DNA of 64,000 nt from Geobacter sp. AOG1 (lineage in GTDB: Bacteria; Desulfobacterota; Desulfuromonadia; Geobacterales; Geobacteraceae). Each line of letters opens with the position of its first letter. The stretch's first letter is position 1. A model generated the notes under the pieces. That model made no database searches and was not told where the DNA came from. It was given only the letters and a program-made list of their open reading frames with translations. The DNA lies in the NCBI RefSeq assembly GCF_019972315.1, contig NZ_BLIZ01000001.1, positions 1,748,513 to 1,812,512 of the forward strand. The letters are read 5' to 3'. A program made the translations under genes and the position numbers. Of this stretch, positions 48,682 through 64,000 are shown piece after piece.

Positions 48682-50664
48682 ATGCGCGGTACTGCTGAAG
48701 GGGCACCCGGCCTGAAAACCCGTTTACGTGACCATTTGCCGCCGGTCCTTCTCCTGGTGGCGGTTACATTTGCCATCTATGGCCGGATTCTGGGGCACGA
48801 ATTCCTCATCAACTGGGACGACAACCTCTACGTAACGGAAAACGAGACGGTGCGGGGTTTCTCCTGGCCCCATCTACGGGACGCTTTCAGCCATTTCTAC
48901 GTCGGCAATTATGCGCCGGTGCAGATGCTTTCCTACATGCTGGATTATACCCTCTGGGGACTGCGGCCGGCAGGCTTTCTGCTGACCAACATCGTCTGCC
49001 ACCTGACCAGCGGGGTCGTCTTTTATTTGTTACTGTTGCGGTTGCACGGCAGCAAGCTGGTGGCCATACTGGCTGCCTTCGTTTTCCTCTGCCATCCGGT
49101 CCAGGTGGAGTCGGTTGCCTGGGTCTCCCAGCGGAAGAACCTGCTGGCGATGGTCTTTTTTCTGGTATCCCTGTATGGGTATGCGGTCTACCGGGAACGG
49201 GAGCCGGCGGGTGGGCGGCCTGCCTATGGATGGTCGCTCGGAGCCTTTGTCCTGGCGCTGTTGGCCAAGTCGATCGCCGTCATCCTGCCGCCCCTCCTGG
49301 TGATCTACGATCGGTGCTGTTTCAAGAGCGGCCAGCAACGGGGCTGGTTCGACAAGATCCCCTACTTGGTGGCAGCGGTTGCCGTGGCGGTGCTCGCGCT
49401 CGTCAGCCAGGATCCGGCCTTGCGGTCCGGTGGAGGACGTGCCGGCTACCCCGGCGGTACTCCTTTGGCAACACTCTTTACCATGCTGCCGGTACTGGGG
49501 CACTACCTGCTGTTGCTGGTCTGGCCCGCCGATCTGAGTGCCATCTACAATCCGCAGATACGCACCAGTGTGGATATGACGGTCTTTCTGGCGGTTGGAT
49601 TTCTGGTGATTCTGGCGACCGGAGGAATCTATCTCTACCGTCGTCACCGGCGAGCTTTTTTCTGGTATGCCCTGTTTTTTCTCGGGCTGGTGCCCGTTTC
49701 CCAGGTCGTGCCGCTCGTAACGCTCATGAATGACCGCTACCTCTATTTCCCCCTCCTCGGAGCAGGAGCTCTGGTGGGACTGGGAGTTGCCGGGCTGTCG
49801 ACACGTGTGGGGGAGGTGGGGCGAAAGGCTCTCCTGGTCGGCTGCTGCCTTGTTCTTGTCAGTATGTCGTTCCTCTCCTGGCAGCGGGCCGGGGTCTGGC
49901 GGAATTCCCTCACCCTCTGGGAAGACTCGGCGGCCAAAACCCCCGAAAAGCCCGGCTCCTGGAACGGGCTGGCGCAGGCCCTGCTCCGTAACGGCAAGTC
50001 TAATGAGGCAATGGCAGTTTTCCGCCGGGCACTGGCTATCGATCCGAACAATGCCGAGGCGTGGAGTGGCGTCGGCGAAATCCTGCAGCGTGCCGGCCGG
50101 CTTGATGAGGCCCTGGCGGCCTACGAGAGGGGAATAGCTGCCGACTCCGACGATCCGACCATCCTCAACAATCTCGGCATTCTCCTGATGGACCGGGGAG
50201 ACCTGTCGCGGTCCCGGGAGTATCTGGAACGGCTGGTCAGGAGTTACCCGAACAACGCCCCGGGCCATTATAACCTGGGGAACAACTACCACCTTGCCGA
50301 CATGCCCGAAAAGGCTGCCCAAGAGTATATGACGGCCCTGCAACTGCAGCCGAGGTATGGAAAGGCGTTGGCTGCCCTGCTCAACCTCAGCCTGAAACAG
50401 CACCAGTTCGCAGAAGCCCGACGTTATTACGGTGAACTGGCGAGGGTGGGGGAGGTCGACGCCGATGCGGAATACGATATGGCTTGCGTCGAGGCGTTGG
50501 CTGAACAACTGGCGGCAGCCCTCGCTCACCTGGAGGCGGCCCTGCAACAGGGGTATCGGGACTGGGCCAACCTGTCGACTGATCCTGACCTGGCGCGTCT
50601 GAGAAGCCTCCCCGAGTACCGGAAGTTGGTTGCTCGTTACCTGGGAACACCCGATGGGACGTAG
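48682..50664 (+). CDS. TMTC-like membrane glycosyltransferase with TPR tail
   Basis: This 660-residue protein has about ten hydrophobic spans in residues 20-405 and a GT-C-like luminal start (INWDDNLYV, acidic DD typical of O-mannosyltransferase-type enzymes). It then carries 4-5 TPR repeats (about 430-600; ALAIDPNNAEAWSGVGEI, LGILLMDRGDLSRSREYLE). The arrangement is like TMTC-type protein O-mannosyltransferases and many unassigned bacterial homologues. It sits 18 bases after purH in the pur cluster but has no role in purines. Confidence 0.8.
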   Translation: MRGTAEGAPGLKTRLRDHLPPVLLLVAVTFAIYGRILGHEFLINWDDNLYVTENETVRGFSWPHLRDAFSHFYVGNYAPVQMLSYMLDYTLWGLRPAGFLLTNIVCHLTSGVVFYLLLLRLHGSKLVAILAAFVFLCHPVQVESVAWVSQRKNLLAMVFFLVSLYGYAVYREREPAGGRPAYGWSLGAFVLALLAKSIAVILPPLLVIYDRCCFKSGQQRGWFDKIPYLVAAVAVAVLALVSQDPALRSGGGRAGYPGGTPLATLFTMLPVLGHYLLLLVWPADLSAIYNPQIRTSVDMTVFLAVGFLVILATGGIYLYRRHRRAFFWYALFFLGLVPVSQVVPLVTLMNDRYLYFPLLGAGALVGLGVAGLSTRVGEVGRKALLVGCCLVLVSMSFLSWQRAGVWRNSLTLWEDSAAKTPEKPGSWNGLAQALLRNGKSNEAMAVFRRALAIDPNNAEAWSGVGEILQRAGRLDEALAAYERGIAADSDDPTILNNLGILLMDRGDLSRSREYLERLVRSYPNNAPGHYNLGNNYHLADMPEKAAQEYMTALQLQPRYGKALAALLNLSLKQHQFAEARRYYGELARVGEVDADAEYDMACVEALAEQLAAALAHLEAALQQGYRDWANLSTDPDLARLRSLPEYRKLVARYLGTPDGT

Positions 50665-50748
50665 GTTGTCCTCGATGCCGACACACCCGGTTATTGCCGG
50701 ACGAATAGCCGGGCATAGCGTAAAAGTAAAGAAAGGTAGGGAGATGAT

Positions 50749-52026
50749 ATGAAAATTCTGGTAATCGGCGGCGGCGGGCGGGAGCATGCCCTAGTCTGGA
50801 AAATAGCCCAATCCCCCCTGGTGGAGAAAGTCTACTGCGCGCCAGGGAACCCCGGTATCGGCCAGCTGGCGGAAAATGTCGCCATCGGGGTGGACGACCT
50901 ACCGCAGCTTCTGGCCTTCGCCCGCAAGGAAAATATCGACCTGACGGTCGTCGGTCCGGAACTCCCCCTCTCCCTCGGGATCGTGGACCTGTTCGAGGAG
51001 TACGGTCTGAAGATATTCGGCGCCCGGCGCAATGCGGCGCTGATCGAGGCGAGCAAGGCCTTTTCCAAGGACCTGATGAAAAAATACCATGTCCCCACCG
51101 CCGCCTATGAAGTATTCACCGAGGTTGAGCCTGCGATCGCCTTCATTGACAGGCTCGGCGTCCCCATCGTCATCAAGGCCGACGGACTGGCTGCGGGCAA
51201 GGGTGTTATCATCGCCCAGACCAGGGACGAAGCGGTCGAGGCGGTCACCGACATGCTGTCGGGGAATGCCTTCGGCGAGGCCGGTTCCCGCGTGGTGGTC
51301 GAGGAGTTCCTGAAGGGTGAAGAAGCGTCGTTCCTTGCCTTCACCGACGGGAAGAACATCATCCCCCTGGCGAGCGCCCAGGACCACAAGGCGGTCTTCG
51401 ACGGGGATACCGGCCCCAACACTGGTGGCATGGGTGCCTATTCGCCGGCGCCGGTAGTGACACCGGCCATTCACGAGAAGGCAATGGCTGAAGTCATGCG
51501 CCGCACCGTGGACGGTATGGCGGCAGAGGGGCGCCCCTATCGCGGGGTCCTCTACGCCGGCCTGATGATCGACGGTGACCAGGTGAAGACCCTGGAATTC
51601 AACGCCCGGTTCGGCGACCCGGAATGCCAGCCGCTCCTGATGCGGATGAAATCGGATATCGTGCCGATCCTTCTGGCAGTTGCGGAGGGGGACATCAGCC
51701 GGGTTGCGATCGAATGGCACGACCAGGCAGCGGTATGTGTTGTGATGGCGAGTGGCGGGTATCCGGGGGAGTATCGCAAAGGGGATGCCATCCTGGGGTT
51801 GGACGCGGCGGCGAATATCCCGGATGTGGTGGTGTTCCACGCCGGCACGGCGCTCAGGGGAGAAGAAACGGTTACCAGCGGCGGTCGGGTCCTCGGTGTC
51901 ACTGCATTGGGGGGAACGGTGCGGGAAGCGATCGATCGCGCCTATCAAGGTGTCGCCGCCATCAGCTGGGACGGGGTGCACTATCGCAGGGATATCGGGA
52001 GTAAGGCGTTAGGCCGGGACTCGTAA
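50749..52026 (+). CDS. purD: Phosphoribosylamine-glycine ligase
   Basis: This 425-residue ATP-grasp enzyme joins glycine to phosphoribosylamine in purine synthesis. The N-terminal VIGGGGREHAL, ATP-grasp KADGLAAGKGV, the GPNTGGMGAYSPAP region and EFNARFGDPE metal-binding motif are present. RBS GGGAGA. Its last bases run into a GGGACTCG heptamer-like array. Confidence 0.97.
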   Translation: MKILVIGGGGREHALVWKIAQSPLVEKVYCAPGNPGIGQLAENVAIGVDDLPQLLAFARKENIDLTVVGPELPLSLGIVDLFEEYGLKIFGARRNAALIEASKAFSKDLMKKYHVPTAAYEVFTEVEPAIAFIDRLGVPIVIKADGLAAGKGVIIAQTRDEAVEAVTDMLSGNAFGEAGSRVVVEEFLKGEEASFLAFTDGKNIIPLASAQDHKAVFDGDTGPNTGGMGAYSPAPVVTPAIHEKAMAEVMRRTVDGMAAEGRPYRGVLYAGLMIDGDQVKTLEFNARFGDPECQPLLMRMKSDIVPILLAVAEGDISRVAIEWHDQAAVCVVMASGGYPGEYRKGDAILGLDAAANIPDVVVFHAGTALRGEETVTSGGRVLGVTALGGTVREAIDRAYQGVAAISWDGVHYRRDIGSKALGRDS

Positions 52027-52231
52027 AGCCGGGACTCGGGAACCGTAAACTCGACGGGACTCGTGATCCGGGACTCGGTACTCGTAAAAACTTAAACCGG
52101 GACCTGGGATCCGGGGCTCATAACAACAACATCTGAATAAGTGACCATTTAACGGTAACGGATTACGCTTCCCGAACCCCGGAATATCGGTGTTGGTTTT
52201 ACGAGTCCCGAGTCCCGGATCACGAGTCCCG
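52016..52231. repeat. Heptamer-built long inverted repeat between purD and purE
   Basis: The left arm 52055-52091 (GGGACTCG/GTGATCC/GGGACTCG/GTACTCG units) is complementary to the right arm 52196-52231 (GTTTTACGAGTCCCGAG...GGATCACGAGTCCCG), a near-perfect ~36-bp stem around a ~104-base loop. Units recur at 7-base spacing in both arms, and the array also covers the last purD codons. It would form a strong RNA hairpin just before the purE ribosome binding site. Confidence 0.88.
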
Positions 52232-52253
52232 GCCTTATAAAAGGAGTGTATAA

Positions 52254-52754
52254 ATGGAAAATCCACAGGTACTCATCGTCATGGGGAGCGATTCCGATCT
52301 GCCGATCATGGAAGAAGGGGCAAAGGTCCTGGCAGAATTCGGCGTTTCCTACGAGATGCGGATATCGTCGGCCCACCGCTGTCCCCGCAAGACAGCGGCA
52401 CTTGCAGCAGGTGCGGCCGGGCGGGGGATCAGGGTCATAATTGCCGGCGCCGGTATGGCGGCACATCTGGCAGGCGTCATCGCGGCGGAAACCACCCTGC
52501 CCATAATCGGTGTCCCCATCGGCGGTGGATCGCTCAACGGGGTGGATGCCCTCTATGCCATGGTGCAGATGCCGGCGGGGATACCGGTGGCGACCATGGC
52601 CATCGGCAAGGCGGGGGCGAAGAACGCCGCCCTGTTTGCCATTCAGATGCTGGCGCTTCACGATGCCGGCCTGGCCGCCGCTCTCGTCAGTCATCGGGAA
52701 AAGATGGCGCTGGAAGTGGAAGCGAAGGACCAGGCCCTGCAAGCCTCCCGATAG
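52254..52754 (+). CDS. purE: N5-carboxyaminoimidazole ribonucleotide mutase
   Basis: This 166-residue class I PurE converts N5-CAIR to CAIR. MGSDSDLPIM near residue 11, SSAHR near 41 and the AGAGMAAHLAGV core are present. GGAGTG precedes the ATG. No purK is adjacent in this window. Confidence 0.96.
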   Translation: MENPQVLIVMGSDSDLPIMEEGAKVLAEFGVSYEMRISSAHRCPRKTAALAAGAAGRGIRVIIAGAGMAAHLAGVIAAETTLPIIGVPIGGGSLNGVDALYAMVQMPAGIPVATMAIGKAGAKNAALFAIQMLALHDAGLAAALVSHREKMALEVEAKDQALQASR

Positions 52755-52873
52755 TCGTCGGCGAAATTGAAGTCGCCTCTCTCTTTCCCGGATACCGGAA
52801 TAGACAGGTGCCGGAGAGCATGGTTAACCCGTGCTAACATGCACTGGGAGGGGCGTCACGGGGATATTTTTGC

Positions 52874-52902
52874 TTGACAACGGTAGTGTTGTGTATTAGT
52901 TT
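52874..52902 (+). promoter_or_regulatory. Putative promoter of ppcA
   Basis: TTGACA at 52874 is followed after 14-17 bases by a TATTAGTTT region (52894-52902). It sits about 40 bases upstream of the ppcA start. The -10 box is imperfect. Confidence 0.4.
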
Positions 52903-52941
52903 TGCCGCGATTTACATTACAGACGAAGGAGGTGAAATTCG

Positions 52942-53214
52942 ATGAAAAAGATTTTTGCTGCGATGGCGCTTACGCTCATCTGTGCAGTGGCCGCCATGGC
53001 TGCCGACACCATCAATCTGCCGGCCAAGAACGGCAACGTGACCTTCAACCACAAGAAGCACCAGGAGACGCTGAAGGATTGCAAGGTGTGCCACGAAAAA
53101 GGCCCCGGTAAAATCGAGGGTTTTGGCAAGGACGCCGCTCACAAGCTCTGCAAAGGCTGCCACGAGGAGAAGAAGGCCGGCCCGACCAAGTGTGGTGAGT
53201 GCCACAAGAAGTAA
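52942..53214 (+). CDS. ppcA: Triheme periplasmic cytochrome c7 (PpcA type)
   Basis: This 90-residue precursor has a signal peptide (cleavage AMA-AD near residue 20), giving a mature protein of about 70 residues with three CxxCH motifs: CKVCH (47), CKGCH (70), CGECH (84). It also has the FNHKKH histidine pair and KGPGKIEGFGK loop of PpcA family cytochromes, which carry electrons across the periplasm to outer-membrane conduits. It has its own promoter, a strong AAGGAGGTG site and a terminator, so it is expressed separately from resB. Confidence 0.93.
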   Translation: MKKIFAAMALTLICAVAAMAADTINLPAKNGNVTFNHKKHQETLKDCKVCHEKGPGKIEGFGKDAAHKLCKGCHEEKKAGPTKCGECHKK

Positions 53215-53239
53215 CCGTTCCAGGCTCTCAGAAACAACG

Positions 53240-53275
53240 GAAAAGGGGTAACAGGGTTCTTGTTATCCCTTTTTC
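53240..53275 (+). terminator. Rho-independent terminator after ppcA
   Basis: AAAAAGGGgTAACA pairs with TGTTAtCCCTTTTT, and the T-run continues. Confidence 0.9.
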
Positions 53276-53387
53276 TTAGCCATAAATAAAATTAGTAAAA
53301 TTAAATTATCCTTTTTGCGCCGTTTTGCATATAATCGCACGTTGATGTAGCACAGCATCACATCTATTATCTGTTCAGGAGAACACC

Positions 53388-54749
53388 TTGACTACCAAAG
53401 ACCGCGGTTTTCTGCAAGCCCTCTGGGATTTTTTCTGCGCCCTCAAACTCTCGATTTCGCTCCTCATCCTGCTGGCGGTGACCTCGATTATCGGGACGGT
53501 CATCCCCCAGGTCCCCAACATCCCCGAGGAGTATATCCACTCCTTGAGCCAGACCAAGCTGCAGCTGTACGACAAGCTCGGCTTCTTCGACATGTACCAT
53601 TCCTGGTGGTTCATCCTGCTCCTCTACCTGCTGACGGTCAACCTGATCGCCTGTTCCATCAAGCGTCTGCCGCGGGTCTGGAAGATCGTCTCCGAGCCGA
53701 CTCTGGTGATGGACGAAGCCTTCGAGAAATCCCTTTCCCTGACCCATGATGTCAAGATGAAGGGGGAGAGCGCCACCCTCAGGGAGAAGATGGTTTCCTT
53801 CCTCACGAGCGAGTTTGCGAAACCGGTCGTAACGGAAATTGACGGAACCTGCCACCTCTTCGCCCAGAAAACCCCGTACAGCCGGCTGGGGGTGTACGTG
53901 GTCCACTTCAGCATCATCATCATTTTCATTGGCGCCATCATCGGTTCCTACTTCGGCTACAAGGGGTTCGTCACCATCGTGGAGGGGCAGAGCGTGGACA
54001 GCTTGACGAGCCGCTCGGGAAAGACCATCCCCCTCGGGTTTGCCCTCAAGTGCGAGAAATTCTCGGTTTCCTTCTATGACACCGGTGCTCCCAAGGAGTT
54101 CAAGAGCATCCTGACCGTGCTGGAGAATGGCCAGCCGGTTCCCGGTTATATCAACATTCCGACTATCGTCAACAGTCCCCTCACCTACAAGGGGATTACC
54201 TTCTACCAGTCCAGTTACGGCTCCGCCAGCGAGGGAGGTACCTTCTACTTCACCGTCCGCAGCCGTAAGGGGGGAGCACCGGTCAAGCTGACGGCCCGCC
54301 AGGGGGACAAGGTCCCGCTTCCCGGCGGTGGCACCATGCAGGTACTGGAGTCGACGGACGAGGTGCGCAATTTCATCCCGCAGTTTTCCGGGCCGGCGGC
54401 CCGCATCGAGGTGGCTACCGGCAGCGGGGCACCCCAGGCTTTCATCGTCATGCGCAACTATCCGGAACTGGATGAACAGCGGGGCGGGGACACGATCTTC
54501 TCCTACGATGGCTCGGACCAGAAGTTCTACACCGGTCTCCAGGTGGCCAAGGACCCCGGCGTCTGGGTCGTCTGGCTGGGCTGTGCCCTCATGGTAATCG
54601 GCATCTGCATGGCGTTTTTCATGTCCCACAAGCGGGTCTGGATACGGATCGCCAATGGTCATGTGGTAATGGGGGGGAGCGCCAGCAAAAATCCGGCCGG
54701 CTTCCAGCTCCAGTTCGATGCCCTCGTGGATAAACTCACTAAACTGTAA
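53388..54749 (+). CDS. resB: ResB-type cytochrome c biogenesis protein
   Basis: This 453-residue membrane protein is of the system II haem-handling pair. There are four hydrophobic spans (about 15-38, 65-88, 165-190, 395-415), with the large periplasmic domain between the third and fourth typical of ResB/Ccs1. Start is TTG with CAGGAGA upstream. It lies 19 bases before ccsB. Confidence 0.93.
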   Translation: MTTKDRGFLQALWDFFCALKLSISLLILLAVTSIIGTVIPQVPNIPEEYIHSLSQTKLQLYDKLGFFDMYHSWWFILLLYLLTVNLIACSIKRLPRVWKIVSEPTLVMDEAFEKSLSLTHDVKMKGESATLREKMVSFLTSEFAKPVVTEIDGTCHLFAQKTPYSRLGVYVVHFSIIIIFIGAIIGSYFGYKGFVTIVEGQSVDSLTSRSGKTIPLGFALKCEKFSVSFYDTGAPKEFKSILTVLENGQPVPGYINIPTIVNSPLTYKGITFYQSSYGSASEGGTFYFTVRSRKGGAPVKLTARQGDKVPLPGGGTMQVLESTDEVRNFIPQFSGPAARIEVATGSGAPQAFIVMRNYPELDEQRGGDTIFSYDGSDQKFYTGLQVAKDPGVWVVWLGCALMVIGICMAFFMSHKRVWIRIANGHVVMGGSASKNPAGFQLQFDALVDKLTKL

Positions 54750-54768
54750 CCCTTCGGAGGATACACCG

Positions 54769-55620
54769 ATGTCCAGTTCGCTGTTGTTCAATGTCACCAC
54801 CTTCGCCTATCTGGCGTCCACCGTTGCCTTCTTTGCCTTCCTGGCCAGCAGGAACAAAAATCTCGGTCTTGCCGGCAGCGGCATCGCCTTCTTCGGATTC
54901 ATCGTCCAGACGGTCGCCATCGGCCTTCGCTGGCAGGAGTCCTACGCCATGGGGCATGGCCATGCGCCTCTTTCCAACCTCTACGAATCGGTGGTCTTCT
55001 TCTCCTGGACCATCATTCTGATCTTCGGGTTTCTCGACCTGAAATACAAGTACCGGGTGGTGGGTGCCTTTGTCGTCCCCTTTGCCCTCCTTGGCATGGC
55101 GTGGGCGCAGCTCGGCATGAACAGCGGGATCGAGCCTCTCGTGCCGGCCCTCCAGAGCAACTGGCTGCTCTACCATGTCATCACCTGCTTCCTCGGCTAT
55201 GCGGCGTTCGCGGTCGCCTGCGGCATCTCCATCATGTACCTGATCAAGGAGAAGCAGGAGACGACCGACGGAAACTCCCAGGCAGGGGGTGTCATCGCCA
55301 TGTTCCCTTCCATCAAAATACTGGACGACCTGAACTACAAGGCGATCATGATCGGCTTCCCGCTACTGACCCTCGGCATCATAACCGGCGCCGCCTGGGC
55401 CAATTACGCCTGGGGCACCTACTGGAGCTGGGACCCGAAGGAAACGTGGTCGCTTATCGTCTGGTTCATCTACGCAGCCTTCCTCCATGCCCGCATTACC
55501 CGCGGGTGGGTCGGGAGACGAGCGGCGATCCTGTCCATTGTCGGCTTTGCCGCCACCATCTTCTGTTATCTCGGCGTCAACCTGTTCCTTTCGGGGCTGC
55601 ACAGTTACGGCGGACGGTAG
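54769..55620 (+). CDS. ccsB: CcsB/CcsA haem-handling protein
   Basis: This 283-residue polytopic protein has the tryptophan-rich haem-binding WWD-type motif WGTYWSWDPKETWSL and conserved periplasmic histidines (e.g. in LLYHVITCFLGY and AAFLHARI). Together with ResB it ligates haem to CxxCH motifs in the periplasm. GGAGG lies nine bases upstream. A start at 54718 would overlap resB and is not supported. Confidence 0.94.
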   Translation: MSSSLLFNVTTFAYLASTVAFFAFLASRNKNLGLAGSGIAFFGFIVQTVAIGLRWQESYAMGHGHAPLSNLYESVVFFSWTIILIFGFLDLKYKYRVVGAFVVPFALLGMAWAQLGMNSGIEPLVPALQSNWLLYHVITCFLGYAAFAVACGISIMYLIKEKQETTDGNSQAGGVIAMFPSIKILDDLNYKAIMIGFPLLTLGIITGAAWANYAWGTYWSWDPKETWSLIVWFIYAAFLHARITRGWVGRRAAILSIVGFAATIFCYLGVNLFLSGLHSYGGR

Positions 55621-55656
55621 CAGAAGCTTACACTACGGCTGTTCGGGAGAGTGAGA

Positions 55657-56658
55657 ATGAGTGCATGGAAGCGGCTGTCTGTTCCTGCCCTGCTCGGCGC
55701 GATGCTGGCGTTTGTCGCTCCGTCGGGGGAAAGTGAGGCGGCCTCCGAGCTCAGATGTCTCGGCTGTCACCCCGCCATCGTGCGCGACAGCGTGGTGCAC
55801 AAGCCGGTCGGCGATGGGGAGTGCGTTTCATGCCACCAGATGGTGCAAGGGAAGATGCATCCTTCCGAGAAAGGGTCGGTGACCCTTCAGGAAAAGGGGG
55901 AAAAGCTCTGCTACATGTGTCATGATAATCTTGCCGCCAAGAAGTTCGTCCATGGGCCGGTGGCGAGTGGCGAATGCCAGGCGTGCCACGAAGTGCACAA
56001 GTCCCCCAACCGCAAACTGCTGAAGGGAACCGGCGCCGATTTCTGCTTCATGTGCCACGAGAACAAATTCCAGTTCAAATACGGCCATGCACCTGTCGTG
56101 CAGGGTGACTGTCTTGCCTGCCATGATCCCCACCAGTCCGATAACAAGATGATGGTCAGAAAGCCCGGTTCCAAACTCTGCTTCGACTGCCACGATAGCG
56201 CTATCGCCAAGGGGAAGTCGGTGCACGGGCCAGTGGCGACCGGCGACTGTCTCGGCTGCCACCTGGTGCATGGCTCGCCGTACCGGCATATGCTCAAGCG
56301 CGACAATCCCGACCTGTATTACATGCCCTACAACCCCGCCCACTACTCGTTCTGCTTCGATTGCCACAACCGGGATCTGGCCAAGGACAAGCGGACCGAT
56401 ACCCTCACCGGATTCCGGAACGGGGACCGCAACCTCCACGAGCTGCACGTCAACAAGCCCGACAAGGGGCGTACCTGCAAGACCTGCCATGAGCCACACA
56501 ACGCAGCCCAAGGGCGCCTCCTCAAGAAAAACATCCCCGGGTTCGGGAAATGGGATATCCCCATGTTTTTCACCGGCACCTCCACGGGGGGGACCTGTGT
56601 CGTCGGTTGTCACAAACCCAAATCCTATGACCGGGTCAGGCCCGTCATCAATCCGTAG
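55657..56658 (+). CDS. Multiheme c-type cytochrome, ten CxxCH plus one CxxxCH
   Basis: This 333-residue protein has a signal peptide (cleavage near SEA-AS, about 30). It contains ten CxxCH motifs (CLGCH, CVSCH, CYMCH, CQACH, CFMCH, CLACH, CFDCH, CLGCH, CFDCH, CKTCH) and a late CVVGCH (CxxxCH) at 56596-56613. The repeat HGPVASGECQACHEVH-style unit recurs, suggesting internal duplication. It is probably periplasmic and part of the electron path feeding the OmcE-like filament. It follows ccsB by 36 bases in the same operon. Confidence 0.93.
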   Translation: MSAWKRLSVPALLGAMLAFVAPSGESEAASELRCLGCHPAIVRDSVVHKPVGDGECVSCHQMVQGKMHPSEKGSVTLQEKGEKLCYMCHDNLAAKKFVHGPVASGECQACHEVHKSPNRKLLKGTGADFCFMCHENKFQFKYGHAPVVQGDCLACHDPHQSDNKMMVRKPGSKLCFDCHDSAIAKGKSVHGPVATGDCLGCHLVHGSPYRHMLKRDNPDLYYMPYNPAHYSFCFDCHNRDLAKDKRTDTLTGFRNGDRNLHELHVNKPDKGRTCKTCHEPHNAAQGRLLKKNIPGFGKWDIPMFFTGTSTGGTCVVGCHKPKSYDRVRPVINP

Positions 56659-56733
56659 CGGTCGTTGTTCGCCGGCAGGGATATTCCCTGCCGGCTTTTA
56701 GCACTCATTTTCTGGTGTATCCACGGAGGCAAG

Positions 56734-57720
56734 ATGTTCCGCAAGCTCGTTCCGACCATTGTCATCCTGCTGACTTCAGGGGTGGTTGCAGCCCACGCCG
56801 CCATTACCTTCGTCTATCCTGCTCCCAAAAGCTGGGTGAAGCGGGCGGACTATCTCGTCCTGAAGCTGAATAACCCCGCCATCACCGGCGTCCGGGTCAC
56901 CGTGAACGGCGAGGCGAGCGGGCTCCTGCCGATCGGCACGCCGGAATACCGGAAGGCGTTTCAGGATTTTCTCATTCTCCAGGCGGTCTGGGACAAGGGG
57001 AAGAATGACGTTGCCGTAGAAGCGTTCAGCGGCGACAAGCGGATTGAAACCGCGATGAACGATGTATGGTACAACCCGGGAGGGACGGGTCCCGTCGCCC
57101 CCGAGTACAGTCCCAATCGACTCCACGTGCCGGAAAACGAAAAGCTCTGCGCCCCCTGTCACCCCATGAATCCGACCCCTGCTCAACTTGCCAGCAGTCC
57201 GGAGAAGGGGAATCCCTGTTTCGGCTGCCACAAGAAGATGATGAGTTACACCTTCGTGCACGGTCCGGCAGGAACCTATTCCTGTGCCTACTGCCACGTG
57301 GGTGACGGAAAGTCCAAGTACGCCGTTGTCAAGCGCGACGCGGTGTTGTGCAACGAATGCCACGCCGACAAGGGAGATGAATTCACCAAGCGCAAGTACC
57401 TCCATGGCCCCATCGCAGCGGGACTGTGCGAGGTCTGCCACGATTCCCACGGCTCGCCGTATCCCGCCCAGCTCCTCATGCCGATCAACGAGCTCTGCCT
57501 TTCCTGCCACGAGGATGTGGGGAAGGGGTACCATGTGGTCCGCACCACGGCTGGCGCCGGTCACCCGCTGAAGTGGAAGATCGATCCGTCCAGGCCGTCA
57601 TCTGGCAGGGAGATGTCGTGCATTTCCTGCCATAATCCCCACAGCGGCGACGTCCGGTATTTCTTCACGAACAATGCGGAGGACCGCTTGCTCCTCTGCC
57701 AGATGTGCCACAATAAATAA
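56734..57720 (+). CDS. Octaheme c-type cytochrome
   Basis: This 328-residue protein has a signal peptide (to about residue 22). An N-terminal ~110-residue beta-rich domain without haem motifs (TFVYPAPKSWVKRADYLVLK...) is followed by eight CxxCH motifs (CAPCH, CFGCH, CAYCH, CNECH, CEVCH, CLSCH, CISCH, CQMCH). The last two thirds resemble the previous cytochrome's HGP...C..CH repeats. Start 56734 follows GGAGG. Same operon as its neighbours. Confidence 0.93.
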   Translation: MFRKLVPTIVILLTSGVVAAHAAITFVYPAPKSWVKRADYLVLKLNNPAITGVRVTVNGEASGLLPIGTPEYRKAFQDFLILQAVWDKGKNDVAVEAFSGDKRIETAMNDVWYNPGGTGPVAPEYSPNRLHVPENEKLCAPCHPMNPTPAQLASSPEKGNPCFGCHKKMMSYTFVHGPAGTYSCAYCHVGDGKSKYAVVKRDAVLCNECHADKGDEFTKRKYLHGPIAAGLCEVCHDSHGSPYPAQLLMPINELCLSCHEDVGKGYHVVRTTAGAGHPLKWKIDPSRPSSGREMSCISCHNPHSGDVRYFFTNNAEDRLLLCQMCHNK

Positions 57721-57771
57721 GAATTTTGTCGATTACAGCGGAATTAACCCAGCACAAAGAAGAGGTACGGT

Positions 57772-58863
57772 ATGAAAAACGCAACAAGAGCACTGGTTAA
57801 ACTCGCCGGTCTGGTCTTCGGTCTCGGCCTCTTAGCAGGATGCGCGGCCGAGCAGCAGGAGGTCAGGCACTATTACTGGCCACAGCTCCCCGATCGTCCG
57901 CGCATCGAGTGGAAGAAGGCATACAGCAGCCAGCTCGATTTCCCCAAGTCGGGATTCAGGCAGTTCATCTCCGCCATAGCGGGCGAGGAGGAGCCGATTC
58001 CCTTCAGCAAGCCGCTCGATATCAAGTCGAACGGCGAAGGAAAGGTGTATGTCACCGACCCGGCCATCGCCCTTGTCTTTGTGTATGACATGGTCAACAA
58101 CAATGTCCACATGCTCGGAGGTGAGGAGGCGGTGGGGCAGTTCCGCTCTCCCGTCGGACTGGCCGTGGATGACGAAATGAACGTCTACGTCAGCGATACG
58201 GAACAGGGGATAATTCAGGTTTTCGACCGGAACGAGAAACCGCTGCGCACCATTACCACCAAGGACCGTCTGGAACGGGCCACCGGCATGGCTTTCGACA
58301 AGGTGCGCAAACGGCTGCTCGTTGTCGACACCCGGGGGCACAAGATCGTGGCATTCGCCCCCGACGGCACCTACCTCACCTCCTTCGGAGCGGGGGGGGA
58401 TGCGGACGGCTATTTCAATTATCCGGTTGCGGTTGCGGTCAACAGCAAGGGGGAGATCGTCGTGGCCGATTCCATGAACGCCCGGATCCAGATATTCGAC
58501 GGGGACGGGAAGTTTCTCCGCAAATTCGGTCGCCGGGGTGATGGCCCCTCCGACTTCCAGATCATGAAGGGGGTCGCGGTCGATTCGGACGATAACATCT
58601 ACGTGAGTGAGGGGAAGGGGCACAAGATGCTCATCTTCAACAGCAACGGCGACTTCCTGCTCCTCGTCGGCGGGCTTTACTCCTCGCTCAATACGGGCAA
58701 ATACGCTCCGGGTGGATTCATGCTCCCCCAGAGTATCGACATCGACAAGAACGACACCATCTACATCGTCGACCAGTTGAACAAGCGGTTTCAGGTCTTC
58801 CAGTACATCTCCGACCGCTACCTGCAGGCCAACCCCATTCCCGGGTACGTCCCGCCGAAGTAG
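57772..58863 (+). CDS. NHL beta-propeller lipoprotein
   Basis: This 363-residue protein has a lipobox (LLAGC, Cys about 24), and its body is built of six NHL-type blades (FRSPVGLAVDDEMNVYVSDT, FNYPVAVAVNSKGEIVVADS and like). It has no haem motif. Its place directly before the OmcE-like gene is the conserved arrangement for OmcE clusters, so an assembly, secretion or docking role for the filament cytochrome is inferred. Confidence 0.9.
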   Translation: MKNATRALVKLAGLVFGLGLLAGCAAEQQEVRHYYWPQLPDRPRIEWKKAYSSQLDFPKSGFRQFISAIAGEEEPIPFSKPLDIKSNGEGKVYVTDPAIALVFVYDMVNNNVHMLGGEEAVGQFRSPVGLAVDDEMNVYVSDTEQGIIQVFDRNEKPLRTITTKDRLERATGMAFDKVRKRLLVVDTRGHKIVAFAPDGTYLTSFGAGGDADGYFNYPVAVAVNSKGEIVVADSMNARIQIFDGDGKFLRKFGRRGDGPSDFQIMKGVAVDSDDNIYVSEGKGHKMLIFNSNGDFLLLVGGLYSSLNTGKYAPGGFMLPQSIDIDKNDTIYIVDQLNKRFQVFQYISDRYLQANPIPGYVPPK

Positions 58864-59281
58864 CATGGTGGCAGCAGTGCCCCTTTTTGTCCGCCATTTC
58901 CCGGCATATGGCGGACTATGACCGGACATTTCAACGGATGAGAGGGTGGAATGAGTGGCATGGAAGTGCAGTTATTTAACCGATAGGGTGGGGTATTGAC
59001 GGTTGCATCTATCGGTTAGGGTCAGTCGAGCAGGAGCAGTTTCGAGATATTTCAGAGTGTTAATTGTTATTGGTAAAGCTGGCTTCATATTTGCACAAAC
59101 TCCTTTCGTATTCCGTGTTACATGGTGAGATTCAAGCTGGCATGCGATTTGCTAAGTTAGTCGTCATGGTATGCAGTAAGTGCGGGATAGCTATCCCCTG
59201 GGCTTGCAAAGAAACCATTAATGCTCGGAGCAATTACAAAGGTCTTTTTAAGACCGACACCAACAGAAAGGAGTAACACCG
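58864..59281. promoter_or_regulatory. Long control region of the OmcE-like gene
   Basis: This 418-base gap carries an inverted repeat TAACCGATA (58977-58985) / TATCGGTTA (59010-59018) flanking a TTGACG, and a hairpin GGTCTT-TTTA-AAGACC near 59241-59255 just before the ribosome site (AAAGGAG). It may be an operator-promoter and a 5' leader. I found no known riboswitch consensus and no convincing ORF, although a 70-codon frame at 59064 exists. Confidence 0.5.
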
Positions 59282-59983
59282 ATGAAAAAAGTATTAGCCC
59301 TCGTGGCGGTCGTCAGTCTCATGGCCGCTGCAACCGTAGCAAGCGCAGCAACCATCAAGAACTCGAAGCATGACCTGAGCAGCGGCAGCACCGCCACCTT
59401 CAAGAGTTCTGGCGTGGGTACCTCCACCAATCAGATCTGCGTGTTCTGCCACACCCCGCATAACGCGATCCAGAACGGCTACCCCCTCTGGAACCGTTCC
59501 GCCGCGAGCGGCTCCTTCCTCCTCTACTCCTCGGGGAACATGAAGAACCAGTACGGCGCCCTAAAGGCGAGCCAGGGCTTCACCACCAACAGCGTCTCTC
59601 TCTACTGCATGAGCTGCCACGATGGCGGCCTCGTTGCCGGCCGGATCCACAACCTGCCGCTCGACAACGGCAAAGTGATTCCGACCATGACCCCTGCCGC
59701 TGATCAGATCACCTCCACGGCCAACCTGGGCACCAACCTGCAGAACGACCATCCGGTCAACTTCAACATCGTCAACTTCGGCGGCGCCATCGGCACCTCC
59801 CAGAACGGCGGCAAGGCCATCGGCGGGCTTACCACGACCAACCTCCCGCTCTTCAACTCCGGCCGTGGTACTTCCAGCCTCGAGTGCGCCAGCTGCCATG
59901 CGGTGCATGATCCGGGCTACGTGCCGTTCCTCCGCACCACCAACGCCGGCAGCTACCTCTGTCTGACCTGCCACAACAAGTAA
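59282..59983 (+). CDS. omcE: OmcE-like tetraheme filament cytochrome
   Basis: This 233-residue precursor has a clear signal peptide (cleavage near ASA-AT, 22-23). Four CxxCH motifs lie at residues 53 (CVFCHTPHN), 109 (CMSCH), 202 (CASCHAVHD) and 227 (CLTCH). Length, haem number, first and last motifs, and genome context match OmcE, which forms extracellular cytochrome nanowires. Long Gly/Ser/Thr/Asn-rich stretches between haems are typical. It has its own promoter region and a strong terminator, suggesting high expression. Confidence 0.9.
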   Translation: MKKVLALVAVVSLMAAATVASAATIKNSKHDLSSGSTATFKSSGVGTSTNQICVFCHTPHNAIQNGYPLWNRSAASGSFLLYSSGNMKNQYGALKASQGFTTNSVSLYCMSCHDGGLVAGRIHNLPLDNGKVIPTMTPAADQITSTANLGTNLQNDHPVNFNIVNFGGAIGTSQNGGKAIGGLTTTNLPLFNSGRGTSSLECASCHAVHDPGYVPFLRTTNAGSYLCLTCHNK

Positions 59984-60012
59984 TGCGAATGTATACCTGC
60001 TGATGGTATCGA

Positions 60013-60041
60013 GGGGGATGGGAAACCATCCCCCTTTTTTT
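60013..60041 (+). terminator. Strong Rho-independent terminator of the OmcE-like gene
   Basis: GGGGGATGG-GAAA-CCATCCCCC is a GNRA-capped 9-bp stem followed by seven T. Confidence 0.95.
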
Positions 60042-60311
60042 GTGCAAAGGGTGCGTGGCACCAGGCGCCGCGTCATTTCACCTGCAATATCGTGTCATAT
60101 CGCGGGCTTTCGGAGAGAGGTGCACCCGCCCCGCCCGGGTGGTCAAAAATGCCTTGTGAATCAGCAGGTTATGGTGTATTGGAATGTGGCAATTAATTGA
60201 CGCGGAAGGTATGGTATTTGCACACAAAAGGGGTCGAACAAGATTTACCAAATCACCGTACAAGTCGGCGAAGATATTGCGAATGTTTCACGACAGGTTA
60301 ATGGCTCCCTG
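60042..60311. other. Intergenic region before the beta-barrel gene
   Basis: About 270 bases hold no supported gene. A GC-rich CACCCGCCCCGCCCGGGTGG block (60123-60142) can fold. No convincing promoter consensus or ribosome site was found; the downstream ATG has only a weak leader. Confidence 0.4.
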
Positions 60312-62558
60312 ATGCGGATAAGGCACGACATATACTTACGGCTTCTGACTACACTGCTCTGTGCGATCTTCCTGCAGTTGTCGCCCCTTTCCGCCCATGC
60401 CAAGCTCTCCGGAGAAGCTGAGTTGGGGTACGTGAAGTACGATTCGAAAACCAACGGCGTTACCGAAAACGACGCCCGTTCCTTCCAGCAGCGCTACTCC
60501 CTCCTCTATTCCACGTCGAACCTCCTCGCCGGCGGCCGCGTGGGTGGGTACAATATCTCCCTCGGCTACGAATGGGCGGCGTTCAACACCAAGATGAAAA
60601 CCCCGAATCCCGCCACCGACGTCTCCCTCTCAGCGAACCGCGGCCACGTCCTCTACGAAGGGGAGATTTTCATCGACCCGAAAGAACTGCCGTTCCAGTT
60701 CAAGGCGTTCAGCCGCGACCTGAACCGAATCCAGTTCAACCGGGACACGGTGATGGTTGGCAACCGTGCCGTTTTCGCCGACGATCTCGTCACCCCCAAC
60801 CTCACCACCGACATCATCGACGGCACCCGCATCGAAAGCGGCGCCACCCTGCTCCTGGGGGTGCGTAACGGCCTGACCAACGGCTATAACGAGATTTTCC
60901 GGTATTTCCCCATGCTGCTGGTGGATTACCGGGACGAGATCAATCACGATCCCAAAAGCCTGTCCCCCGTCGATACCCGTCTGAGCCGTCTGGCGTTCGT
61001 GAGCCTCAACAAGAAGGACAACTGGTTCCATTACCGCACCAGCAAGTTCAGCGACTACCTCAATCCCTTCAACGACTGGACCGAGAAGGCATTCCAGATA
61101 GGGACCGTCGACCAGAACATGGGGCGCCGCTGGATCAGCTTCACCAACTGGATTAACCTCTCCGCCGACGGGACCTTCACCAAGAGGGACGCGAAAAACA
61201 CCGTCAATTCTGTGGAAAGCTACGACCTCAATCTGTTTGGCATAGCCAAGCGCCAGAACTGGGAAGCACGTACCTACAGCACGTTCCGGCGGAGCATCGA
61301 GGACCAGAACCTGATCCATGAAGCGAACCTGCCGCTGTATGCCAATGGCGACCTGAGCCCGGAGACCGACTGGCGGTTCAGGTTCTACGACCACGAGAAA
61401 AAGCAGGCGAACGTCACTAATCCCCTGGAGAGAGACTCCGACCTGCTCGCTTCGCTACAGGTCAATACCTTCAAGCGTTCGTCCTTCACCCTGACCCCCA
61501 CCCTGTCCGTGGAACGCTACGATTCCATCACGGGGAATACCCTTGCCGTCGAAGGTTCCGTCGAGACCACCAGTACCCGGCGGTTTTCCTCCGTATACGG
61601 GCTCTATGGCCGGTATTCCGGGAAGTACTTCGATTCCAACCAGAGCGGGCGGACCACGGGCACCTATACGAACCAGGAAATCGAGGGGCGCGCAAGCTAT
61701 AGGCCATCAAACATCTTCTTCTTCGAAGCCGGCCAGCTCTTCCAGGTCGGTTCCGGCACCAACCCCGGCAATTCCGGCGGTTCCGCCGTGGTGGTCAACA
61801 GCGGATTCGGCGACAGCACGACGAGCAAGTTCTGGCGCACCAACGGCACGACCATCAACGATTACGTCCGCTCCGTCACCACCCTGAAGGGGAGCTGGTC
61901 CCCCGCAGCGCGTCTGCAGGTTTCCCTCTCGCTGACAGAGGATGTCCTGACCGCCTCAGGCCAGCCCGTGGATTACATCACCAGGGTGACCAACACGATT
62001 TCCTACGGTATTTCCGCTTTTTCCATGAGAGTCAGCAGCAGCTATTCCCGGGAAAATACCGGAAGCGCCAGCAACGACTGGCTGGAAAGCAGCGGCCTCG
62101 TCACCTACCAGCCGAACCGGTTCATTGATGCGTCGCTCAATTACCATTATACGCGGGAAAAAAGGTCCGACCAGACAACCACCTTTGTCAACCTGGTCCA
62201 GAAATTCAACTATTACCTCTACCGGACCAACGGTGTCAGCCGGCGACTCCTGGAGTTGAACGAGGAAATCAACTACAACGAAAACAGCACCGACTTCGGT
62301 AGCGCTGCCGTTACCAGCAAGAGTATTTTGCTGGGTGCCAGATACTATCCGCTGCGAAATTTCTTCCTGGCGGGTAATGCGCGGTATACGCTGACCGACC
62401 CGGGAGGGTTCAAGGCGTTTGTCTACTCTGCCTCAACGGGCATTACGTACAGCATGCTCCAGGTCAGCCTCGATTATACCTATGGCAACCAGGACGGGAA
62501 CCTCAACTTCAAGCGGGTGGAAAAGCGGTTTTCCGCTAACCTGAAGAAATTTTTCTAG
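60312..62558 (+). CDS. Outer-membrane beta-barrel protein
   Basis: This 748-residue protein has a signal peptide (cleavage near AHA-KL, about 30) and a body of alternating aromatic/hydrophobic beta strands throughout (ISLGYEWAAF, FSVYGLYGRYSGK, LDYTYGNQDG), ending in a C-terminal Phe (KKFF), the BAM-recognition signature. There is no cysteine-haem motif. Its place after the OmcE-like gene suggests an export pore or surface anchor for the filament, or a structural partner of cytochromes. No named family is recognised. Confidence 0.85.
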   Translation: MRIRHDIYLRLLTTLLCAIFLQLSPLSAHAKLSGEAELGYVKYDSKTNGVTENDARSFQQRYSLLYSTSNLLAGGRVGGYNISLGYEWAAFNTKMKTPNPATDVSLSANRGHVLYEGEIFIDPKELPFQFKAFSRDLNRIQFNRDTVMVGNRAVFADDLVTPNLTTDIIDGTRIESGATLLLGVRNGLTNGYNEIFRYFPMLLVDYRDEINHDPKSLSPVDTRLSRLAFVSLNKKDNWFHYRTSKFSDYLNPFNDWTEKAFQIGTVDQNMGRRWISFTNWINLSADGTFTKRDAKNTVNSVESYDLNLFGIAKRQNWEARTYSTFRRSIEDQNLIHEANLPLYANGDLSPETDWRFRFYDHEKKQANVTNPLERDSDLLASLQVNTFKRSSFTLTPTLSVERYDSITGNTLAVEGSVETTSTRRFSSVYGLYGRYSGKYFDSNQSGRTTGTYTNQEIEGRASYRPSNIFFFEAGQLFQVGSGTNPGNSGGSAVVVNSGFGDSTTSKFWRTNGTTINDYVRSVTTLKGSWSPAARLQVSLSLTEDVLTASGQPVDYITRVTNTISYGISAFSMRVSSSYSRENTGSASNDWLESSGLVTYQPNRFIDASLNYHYTREKRSDQTTTFVNLVQKFNYYLYRTNGVSRRLLELNEEINYNENSTDFGSAAVTSKSILLGARYYPLRNFFLAGNARYTLTDPGGFKAFVYSASTGITYSMLQVSLDYTYGNQDGNLNFKRVEKRFSANLKKFF

Positions 62559-62653
62559 CTATAATCACAGGAGAACGGCCGTTTGAAACGGCTGACAACC
62601 ACCATTACACACACCGGGTCTGCCCGGTTTTTCTTTTTGTACGGAGCGGAAAG

Positions 62654-63628
62654 TTGACTACCGAGATGACCAACAAGGTTTCCATCATCATACCGGTAAA
62701 GCCCGGCGGGACGGTAACTGCACTTGAGGGGCTGTCCCGGCTTGATTTTCCTCCCGACCTGCTGGAGATCATCGTCGCCGAAGGAGCGCAGCCGAGCGTA
62801 CAACGGAACCGGGCCGCCCGGGAGGCGCGCGGCGACATCCTCTATTTTCTCGATGACGATTCCCTCACCGTTCCCGATTTTCTCCACCGAACGGTACGCC
62901 ATTATGCCAACTCTGCGGTGGCGGCGGTGGGGGGACCATCCCTGACTCCTGCCAGCGATTCGCTCTTGCAGCGGAGCATCGGGATTGCGCTTGCTGCCCC
63001 GATGGGTGGGGGCGGGATGCGGAACCGGTATCGCAGGACCGGCATGGCACGAGCCACCGGCGACCATGAACTGATCCTCTGCAACCTTAGCTTCCGTCGC
63101 GACCTGTTTCTCGAATTGGGAGGGCTGGACGAACGGCTCTATCCCAATGAGGAAAACGAGCTCATGGACCGGGTGCGGAGGGGGGGGAGCGTTCTCATTC
63201 ATGATCCCGACCTGGCGGTCTACCGGAGTCAGCGGCCGACATTCCGGGCTTTCATGCGGCAGTTCCTCAATTATGGCCGGGGGCGTGCAGAGCAGACGCT
63301 CATCAGCCGGAGTTTCCACCCGGTCACGTTCCTTCCGGCACTCATGCTTCTCTATCTGGCAACTGCTCCGTTCGTAACCAAGCCGGTTTACTATCTGCCG
63401 CTTTTGTGCTATGCAGGTGCTGTGGCGCTGGCCGCCTTCCAGGGGGCGTTACGGGCCCGGGAGGCAAAAGTGTTTCCCCTGCTCATGGCCATCTTCCCGA
63501 CCATTCACCTTGCCTACGGGGCGGGGCTCTGGCGAGGATTCATCGGCTGGCCGTTCAAAAAAACCAGGGCAGGAGAACCGGTCGTTACCTTGCGGTGGGT
63601 TAAGGAATTCCCAACAGATCGCAGTTGA
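62654..63628 (+). CDS. GT2-family glycosyltransferase
   Basis: This 324-residue protein has a GT-A fold: VSIIIPVKPGG, the ILYFLDDDS metal-binding DxD-type motif and the LDERLYPNEENELMDRV acceptor region, followed by 2-3 C-terminal hydrophobic segments that would anchor it at the inner membrane. Start TTG 62654 with GGAG upstream is used here; ATG 62666 is an alternative. It is probably part of a surface polysaccharide or protein glycosylation locus continuing past the window. Confidence 0.88.
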   Translation: MTTEMTNKVSIIIPVKPGGTVTALEGLSRLDFPPDLLEIIVAEGAQPSVQRNRAAREARGDILYFLDDDSLTVPDFLHRTVRHYANSAVAAVGGPSLTPASDSLLQRSIGIALAAPMGGGGMRNRYRRTGMARATGDHELILCNLSFRRDLFLELGGLDERLYPNEENELMDRVRRGGSVLIHDPDLAVYRSQRPTFRAFMRQFLNYGRGRAEQTLISRSFHPVTFLPALMLLYLATAPFVTKPVYYLPLLCYAGAVALAAFQGALRAREAKVFPLLMAIFPTIHLAYGAGLWRGFIGWPFKKTRAGEPVVTLRWVKEFPTDRS

Positions 63629-63709
63629 AATGGAGCAGTGTAAGGTTTGGTTTCTTTGCGGCTCTGCGACTCTGCGTTAATGGGCTTTTTTTATGGTCTA
63701 GGATTAGCA

Positions 63710-64000
63710 ATGCAGAAATTTACAGACATACCACGGATATATCTCTTCATCGCGCTGTTCGGCGTCACCCTGCTCGTCTATGGAAACACCTTCCGCAACG
63801 ACTGGACCTACGACGACCGGTATGTGGTGGTGGACAACCCCGATACCCATTCACTGGCGGAGTTTGCCCGGAACCAGTATCCCGGACGACCTATGCGCGA
63901 ATTCTCCTACATGGTCGATTACAAGCTGTTCGGAACGAACCCGACAGGTTATCACGCCCAGCAGCTCTTCTGGCACGGCCTGAACGGCTGCCTTCTGCTG
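63710..64000 (+). CDS. Partial TMTC-like membrane glycosyltransferase
   Basis: The first 97 residues are present: an N-terminal TM helix (IYLFIALFGVTLLVYG), then WTYDDRYVV with the acidic DD pair and the segment REFSYMVDYKLFG...YHAQQLFWHGLNGC. It is clearly related to the protein encoded at 48682-50664 (INWDDNLYV, VQMLSYMLDYTLWG). The gene runs off the window, so the rest, including any TPR tail, cannot be seen. Confidence 0.8.
   Translation, partial: MQKFTDIPRIYLFIALFGVTLLVYGNTFRNDWTYDDRYVVVDNPDTHSLAEFARNQYPGRPMREFSYMVDYKLFGTNPTGYHAQQLFWHGLNGCLLL

Follow-up and report, generated by a model that had tools for sequence, protein, structure and literature searches.

A four-gene module around an OmcE-type filament cytochrome, with a predicted giant outer-membrane barrel, in Geobacter and its relatives

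Gene content of the locus

The locus described here occupies positions 52942-62558, on the + strand, of a 64,000-nucleotide stretch of the Geobacter sp. AOG1 genome (this whole stretch is called the window), and includes the gene for an OmcE-type filament cytochrome. A preliminary description of the same DNA correctly read eight genes here on one strand (+), all of which have complete reading frames, and took all eight for a nanowire locus with its own haem-ligation pair. As judged from genome comparison, the core unit is smaller than the eight genes claimed and consists of cytB, an NHL lipoprotein gene, omcE and a barrel gene. cytB (56734-57720, +) encodes an octahaem c-type cytochrome with eight CxxCH motifs and an N-terminal fibronectin-III/Ig-like domain. 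It is followed by the gene for an NHL-repeat beta-propeller lipoprotein (57772-58863, +; PF01436, E 5.1e-28), in which a LAGC lipobox with Ala at +2 is recognizable by eye. omcE (59282-59983, +) encodes a tetrahaem protein with four CxxCH motifs whose identity as an OmcE is borne out by its match to the G. sulfurreducens OmcE structure 7TFS (E 6.1e-62, 55% identity across 215 columns); the ligand-type histidines are all conserved. The G. sulfurreducens locus is GSU0612-GSU0619. The last gene (60312-62558, +) encodes a predicted giant outer-membrane beta-barrel of 748 amino acids that ends in Phe and belongs to no catalogued family.

The genes upstream of the core are ppcA (52942-53214, +), with three CxxCH motifs and a passing score for the NCBIfam cytochrome c7 family CytC7_Geobact, resB (53388-54749, +; PF05140, E 2.8e-110), ccsB (54769-55620, +; passing TIGR03144, E 1.3e-92) and cytA (55657-56658, +). 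ppcA, resB and ccsB (52942-55620, +) form a flanking backbone that lies outside the module, since they are present without it in six control loci. cytA encodes an MtrA/DmsE-like cytochrome, described earlier as having 11 motifs; the count of 11 haem motifs stands, and is made up of ten CxxCH and one CxxxCH. Its match to TIGR03508 (E 7e-29) falls under that family's cut-off, and it is an optional neighbour of the core. A group 2 glycosyltransferase gene (GT2) lies downstream of the barrel gene. Across genomes the cytochrome after ccsB, in the cytA position, ranges from 7 to 23 CxxCH motifs, with cytB staying at 8 and OmcE at 4.

Co-inheritance of the four genes

The four genes travel together, and their features are kept across a class of bacteria. 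In 58 relatives that were searched with the barrel, OmcE, NHL, cytB, cytA and ResB proteins, and for which gene maps were then drawn, the barrel is found in 28. The OmcE gene lies upstream of it in 27 of these, either next to it or separated from it by one NHL gene or a short unassigned frame, and in the remaining genome, G057, the contig ends at the barrel. cytB and the NHL gene lie upstream of OmcE wherever the contig reaches, and the NHL gene adjoins omcE in the gene maps; the G002 cytB was missed by the open reading frame caller and was placed by a separate cytB search (91% identity).

Six control loci without the module (G005, G007, G008, G009, G019 and G030) keep purE-ppcA-resB-ccsB, and four of them (G008, G009, G019 and G030) also keep cytA, as a 94-residue remnant in G030. 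GT2 follows the backbone in five of the six. Given this constant backbone, cytB-NHL-OmcE-barrel is therefore present or absent as a whole block, with its insertion point between ccsB/cytA and GT2. Seven genomes that have the module (G036, G039, G042, G049, G051, G055 and G057) lack cytA at the locus. Thus, of the proposed eight-gene functional unit, four genes hold together, ppcA, resB and ccsB drop out and cytA is optional; PpcA in particular is flanking and stays where the module is absent. A dedicated haem-ligation pair is contradicted, because resB has a match in 57 of the 58 relatives and resB-ccsB persist without the module. On this comparative evidence the neighbouring haem-ligation genes are general rather than nanowire-specific, which removes a false lead.

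On a wider scale, the barrel is present in 41 of 141 genomes of the order (E ≤ 1e-10), and an OmcE ortholog (E ≤ 1e-33, a cut-off set after the list was seen) in 39, all 39 of which also have the barrel; 100 genomes have neither (Fisher p 8e-33, with kinship not corrected). The two barrel genomes with no OmcE at this cut-off are G057, with its barrel at the contig end, and G085, which has a barrel fragment. The expected co-occurrence of the barrel and NHL genes with omcE is confirmed, in that the barrel lies within 4 kb of 40 of the 43 OmcE-ortholog genes; instead of being absent from most omcE loci, the barrel and NHL genes accompany most of them. G039, G051 and G055, which also have the module, account for the three unpaired genes; these are second copies, and neither an NHL gene nor a barrel adjoins them. 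At the looser E ≤ 1e-25 there are 50 OmcE matches in 43 genomes, with 40 of the matches paired with a barrel and 39 of the genomes carrying one.

Among 395 genomes drawn evenly from the phylum, the barrel occurs in 11, all of the same class and all with an OmcE match; an OmcE-type match (E ≤ 1e-22) occurs in 32, many in frames of more than 500 residues. Six loci (L160-L165, from five genomes) were fetched around OmcE-type matches in genomes with no barrel in the first search. L160 has all four genes, its barrel being recognized by a profile hidden Markov model (E 3.3e-34), and the other five do not. The module thus extends beyond the class, to a genome that has all four genes and whose barrel, at this E value of 3.3e-34, is divergent. 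L163 is a true exception, with OmcE and NHL genes after resB-ccsB-cytA and no recognized barrel. In a search of 277 genomes of the class, 17 loci were fetched out of the 42 matches listed, and 14 of the 17 have the barrel. L178 and L193 end before the barrel position, and L188, with no barrel, is of another type. L189 and L190 are reordered, with the barrel directly behind cytB followed by OmcE and NHL genes inverted or swapped, and no part is lost. The same search found in G654 a protein 100% identical to that of entry 9YUQ, in a locus with the order purE-resB-ccsB-cytA (23 haem motifs)-NHL-cytB (8)-NHL-OmcE-barrel.

The giant barrel

At E ≤ 0.001 the barrel matches no Pfam or NCBIfam family, the MtrB/PioB barrel family included; it has no PHROG family either, and its search against PDB sequences returned two matches at E 0.5-0.6; the absent Pfam match to MtrB is no proof against a shared fold. 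An AlphaFold2 model built with 19 sequences is all-beta and barrel-like (predicted local distance difference test score, pLDDT, 86.3; predicted template-modelling score 0.64). It has 34 strands of at least 8 residues with alternating hydrophobic and polar faces (mean hydropathy +0.47 vs -1.27), a contrast that is partly by construction as the faces were assigned by hydropathy. An ideal closed barrel of 34 strands would be about 60 Å wide (C-alpha, ideal geometry), closure and exact strand number being predicted only. The model thus points to a large outer-membrane barrel fold, with a predicted outer-membrane location. The top-ranking Foldseek match is chain B of 6r2q, the Mtr complex (E 8e-9), and many barrels follow.

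Of the 58 most conserved barrel positions, 40 fall between residues 1 and 324 of 718. For the comparison of 39 barrels, those shorter than 600 amino acids and near-duplicates were dropped. The C-terminal F is present in 36 of the 39. In L103 and L143 (G028, Geotalea toluenoxydans), L148 and L187 the barrel is encoded in two consecutive frames, a split due to either mutation or sequencing error.

A second cluster type with NHL and OmcE-like genes occurs in L123, L126, L130, L157, L158, L159, L162, L164 and L165; it varies between loci, and some are cut by contig ends. Its parts are a 13-14-haem cytochrome, an NHL protein, a 5-haem cytochrome, a protein of 657-847 amino acids and usually a second NHL protein, and it also holds a large OmcE-like cytochrome with 7-12 motifs. 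Three of the 657-847-residue proteins were scanned and had no Pfam family, and five of the nine end in Phe. Kinship with the barrel was considered and rejected, since hhalign gave a probability of 1.1% with five of them and the barrel profile had no match at E ≤ 10 among the open reading frames of these loci. The NHL/OmcE-type theme recurs here with an unrelated large protein.

A haem without a conserved ligand in cytB

By eye, the cytA and cytB proteins carry signal peptides of the Sec type along with their 11 and 8 haem motifs, and both may be periplasmic. Besides the eight histidines of its CxxCH motifs, cytB has exactly seven other histidines that are conserved in 45 of 45 sequences (36/36 in the first set); from the later loci only proteins with eight CxxCH motifs were taken, and the 45 sequences form 41 clusters at 90% identity. 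Eight haems against seven conserved distal histidines leave one cytB haem with no conserved internal histidine. In the controls, conserved distal histidines match the haems in number: 11/11 in cytA (17/17 sequences), 3/3 in PpcA (19/19) and 4/4 in OmcE (28/28). The cytA count covers 16 of 19 rows plus the window's protein, three rows with 7 or 8 CxxCH motifs having been dropped. The mature protein contains no further histidine at all in 9 of the 45 cytB sequences, the window's among them.

Several donors for the eighth haem were considered and rejected. His240 of the barrel is present in just 27 of the 39 barrels, too few for a universal ligand, and none of the four histidines of the window's NHL protein occurs in more than 18 of 34 NHL proteins. 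A conserved Met or Lys within cytB fares no better, as at least 90% of the 36 sequences share only the start Met, Lys44 and the C-terminal Lys328. Tyr28 (34/36) and Tyr72 (36/36) are conserved too. In the AlphaFold2 model of cytB the N-terminal part matches Fn3-type domains by Foldseek; the haem part is of low confidence (mean pLDDT 57), so ligand geometry cannot be read from it. At E ≤ 0.001 the only PDB sequence matched by cytA, and likewise by cytB, is chain A of 6r2q (1.7e-12 and 2.2e-9, respectively), a match that may rest partly on the haem motifs alone. We take this chain to be MtrA, since the entry is the Mtr complex; its listed molecule name is odd.

OmcE and the NHL lipoprotein

The four CxxCH motifs of OmcE and its four distal histidines (H30, H60, H157 and H209) occur without exception in the 30 sequences compared, 7TFS and 9YUQ among them. 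The latter entry, named 'putative multiheme cytochrome c', has 16 chains, a number from which it is inferred to be a filament. Subunits of the OmcE and OmcS filaments use a histidine to ligate a haem of their neighbour, and OmcE is reported to be extensively glycosylated (PMC9473688). The region is flanked, next to GT2, by two membrane proteins whose N termini are similar by eye (48682-50664, with TPR repeats, and 63647-64000). A link of these proteins or GT2 to OmcE glycosylation is only a guess, because GT2 stays in five of the six loci that lack the module.

Two other clusters contain related cytochromes. The window's genome (G000) has a second one at about 2.94-2.96 Mb (L120, 1-19501), with an NHL gene, a gene for a tetrahaem OmcE-like protein and cytochromes of 7 and 3 haems, near type II/IV secretion-type genes (secretin and T2SSE ATPase) and Lon. 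In L156 (G107, contig C7) an OmcE paralog is clustered with 26-, 16- and 6-motif cytochromes, and this cluster is possibly related to the osc region of OmcS.

The NHL lipoprotein contains no haem motif (no CxxCH), and the lipobox pattern is found in 34 of the 44 NHL proteins compared. omcE has an NHL gene on either side in six genomes (L095, L098, L105, L107, L110 and L113). A tree of the NHL proteins weakly parts the pre- and post-omcE genes (forks 82/82 and 88/89), and it groups the window's single NHL protein, weakly, with the post-omcE type.

Transcription signals

The locus does not look like one operon, because terminator-like hairpins follow both omcE and the barrel gene, and gaps of 418 and 328 bp flank omcE. 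The signal after omcE (60011-60043, +) is a strong hairpin (60011-60036) with a T run, and that after the barrel gene lies at 62613-62637 (+; hairpin 62613-62628); both come from a pattern search, whose patterns are common in the region (17 found vs 9.7 in shuffles). In G. sulfurreducens, gsu0615-gsu0616-gsu0617 is a predicted transcript followed by omcE (PMC1829397), which fits the order cytA-cytB-NHL-omcE here.

A sigma54-type (-24/-12) site, TGGCATGCGATTTGCT (59138-59153, +), fits TGGCAYGN4TTGCW exactly, and its end lies 128 bp ahead of omcE. If one mismatch is tolerated, the window has 2 such matches against 1.2 expected by chance, so the omcE site alone is weak evidence and its conservation carries the evidence. 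In a first set of upstream regions from L091-L119 (27 omcE, 34 NHL, 25 cytB and 29 barrel rows, with split reading frames and contig ends included), TGGCACGN4TTGCW at no more than two mismatches is found before 24 of 27 omcE, 0 of 34 NHL and 1 of 25 cytB genes, with about 1% in shuffles. The barrel gene is preceded by a sigma54-like site, AGGTATGGTATTTGCA (60207-60222, +), which has three mismatches to the consensus and the same spacing. At up to three mismatches the GG/GC-anchored barrel site occurs in the first set before 24 of 29 barrel, 6 of 34 NHL and 3 of 25 cytB genes; the window's barrel was added in one barrel-site count of this set. A second locus set, from other genomes, gives 19/24 for omcE, 8/18 for the barrel, 0/35 for NHL and 2/19 for cytB at no more than two mismatches, and 14/18 for the barrel site at no more than three. 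Upstream regions under 300 bp, barrels under 600 amino acids and OmcE proteins with other than exactly four CxxCH motifs were dropped from this set, in which L178 and L179 are near-identical.

The available main text of the RpoN regulon paper (PMC2725144) contains no word beginning GSU06. GSU0619, which from its locus tag is presumably the barrel, is encountered only as a hypothetical protein that is upregulated when a gsu1771 mutant forms biofilms; this mutant is also said to overexpress omcE (PMC10599522).

Comparison with known electron conduits

How nanowires exit, are anchored and are charged is called unresolved in a recent review (PMC12307469). In the open-licence literature, as far as its text was available, no role was found for the barrel or the NHL protein, nor a published role for the genes beside G. 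sulfurreducens omcE. The gene set of the module suggests parts that could anchor, feed or export the wire, and its conserved composition (a barrel, an anchor-type protein and a cytochrome one ligand short) makes the question addressable gene by gene.

The locus shares with porin-cytochrome conduits (MtrCAB, OmbB-OmaB-OmcB and the Ext clusters) the combination of multihaem cytochromes, an outer-membrane barrel (here a predicted one) and an outer cytochrome, and OmaB of these conduits is octahaem like cytB (PMC12977616). Unlike in those conduits, the outer cytochrome here would be a polymer subunit and is not a lipoprotein, the barrel is without a Pfam or NCBIfam match and has more predicted strands, and an NHL lipoprotein belongs to the set. 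The third part of the published conduit definition is an outer-membrane redox lipoprotein (PMC6148476). The NHL protein has no CxxCH and OmcE no lipobox cysteine, and the locus falls outside the three-part definition because no redox lipoprotein is present; it may nevertheless act like such a conduit. The osc machinery of OmcS (GSU2493-GSU2501) likewise consists of companion genes that adjoin a filament cytochrome, a likeness by description only, and the osc genes have been proposed to serve folding, secretion and morphology (PMC13194489; PMC12977616).

Possible roles of the module

The cytB ligand gap, together with the inter-subunit histidine ligation in OmcE, leads to the tentative idea, to which we give somewhat less than an even chance, that cytB inside the barrel forms a trans-outer-membrane socket for the OmcE filament. 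The barrel, sitting in the outer membrane, would provide an insulating sheath or channel that the octahaem cytB enters from the periplasm. cytB would receive electrons from PpcA-type carriers, directly or via cytA, and present them outside. The joint on which the OmcE filament stands would be held by the NHL propeller through its lipid anchor in the outer membrane, and the basal OmcE subunit, or another partner, would cap the cytB haem for which the protein itself has no conserved histidine. OmcE and the barrel would be co-induced from promoters of the sigma54 type, with cytB and NHL riding on the upstream transcript. The constant octahaem cytochrome, the adjacency of cytB and the barrel in the rearranged loci, the similarity to chain A of the Mtr complex and the ligand gap speak for such a base complex. 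A more specific version, and an improbable one, is that OmcE nanowires are plugged in by cross-protein haem ligation, with the inter-subunit histidine of the basal OmcE reaching the cytB haem that is short of an internal ligand, inside a single-chain barrel of about 34 strands and a new family. If true, one unbroken haem chain would run from the periplasm to the filament tip, and the wire and barrel would be induced together by sigma54.

Several observations weigh against the socket. One to four further, non-conserved histidines are carried by 36 of the 45 cytB proteins, and the eighth haem could be five-coordinate, or bound by such a histidine or by another residue. The structural match to MtrB is weak (template-modelling score about 0.25, root-mean-square deviation 20 Å), VIA-align puts BtuB (Z 17.7) above MtrB (Z 16.1, rank 3), and MtrB has 26 strands (PMC12133095), fewer than the barrel model. 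Four of the 43 genomes with OmcE matches at E ≤ 1e-25 (G086, G096, G098 and G099) have no barrel, the matches lying in frames of 554-596 residues, and G170 has OmcE, NHL and cytA genes with no recognized barrel or cytB nearby. Disruption of GSU0616, the presumed cytB equivalent by gene order, made cell suspensions reduce more of each of the three metals tested (PMC1829397), a phenotype that speaks against a simple conduit role of cytB; loss of omcE, unlike this disruption, is reported to impair Fe(III) oxide reduction (PMC1829397; PMC10597711). According to PMC13194489, OmcE is not essential for that reduction. Deleting five other conduit clusters abolishes all metal reduction and leaves residual electrode activity (PMC6148476), so the locus cannot replace those conduits. 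The sigma54-type sites, finally, pair the barrel with omcE and not with cytB.

This last pattern, common to the barrel and omcE and rare before cytB and NHL, favours the main rival, which is nearly as good as the socket and, taken by itself, possible though rather unlikely: the barrel would be an usher-like exit or assembly pore for OmcE, with the NHL protein gating or templating assembly and cytB merely a nearby electron donor. OmcE has to get across the outer membrane and lacks a lipobox cysteine, a closed barrel of the width estimated above would be in keeping with a pore, and the GSU0616 disruption did metal reduction no harm. A secretion role of OscE/F/G for OmcS, reported second-hand in PMC13194489, points the same way. 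Such a pore leaves unaccounted for an octahaem cytochrome that is constant in the module and can sit directly before the barrel, as in L189 and L190. The three OmcE paralogs at barrel-less loci also tell against it, though those genomes carry the barrel elsewhere, and the reported PilA-N-dependent secretion of OmcS and OmcZ (PMC12307469) means that another export route may exist. An ordinary porin-cytochrome conduit of barrel and cytB, with OmcE as a terminal reductase, soluble or filamentous, that does not have to be physically plugged in, would explain why signal-peptide multihaem cytochromes, a barrel and an extracellular-type cytochrome share one locus and why cytA and cytB resemble chain A of 6r2q; with no redox lipoprotein at the outer membrane and the cytB ligand gap left unexplained, we regard it as doubtful. 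That the neighbourhood is kept by vertical inheritance only, with unrelated roles of the barrel and OmcE, agrees with the backbone genes also staying in order and is very unlikely given that loss, gain and reordering affect the four genes as a group, that backbone genes are not lost alongside and that co-presence is 39/39. Scarcely any weight is left for the eight-gene locus with its own haem-ligation pair, which the contiguity of the genes on one strand in this genome had suggested and which the distribution of resB and the six control loci already contradict.

Other features of the region

A scan of 50000-64000 with Rfam at gathering scores gave 0 matches. The intergenic segment at 52010-52240, between a purD-like gene (by eye) and purE, contains dense short repeats around GGGACTCG.

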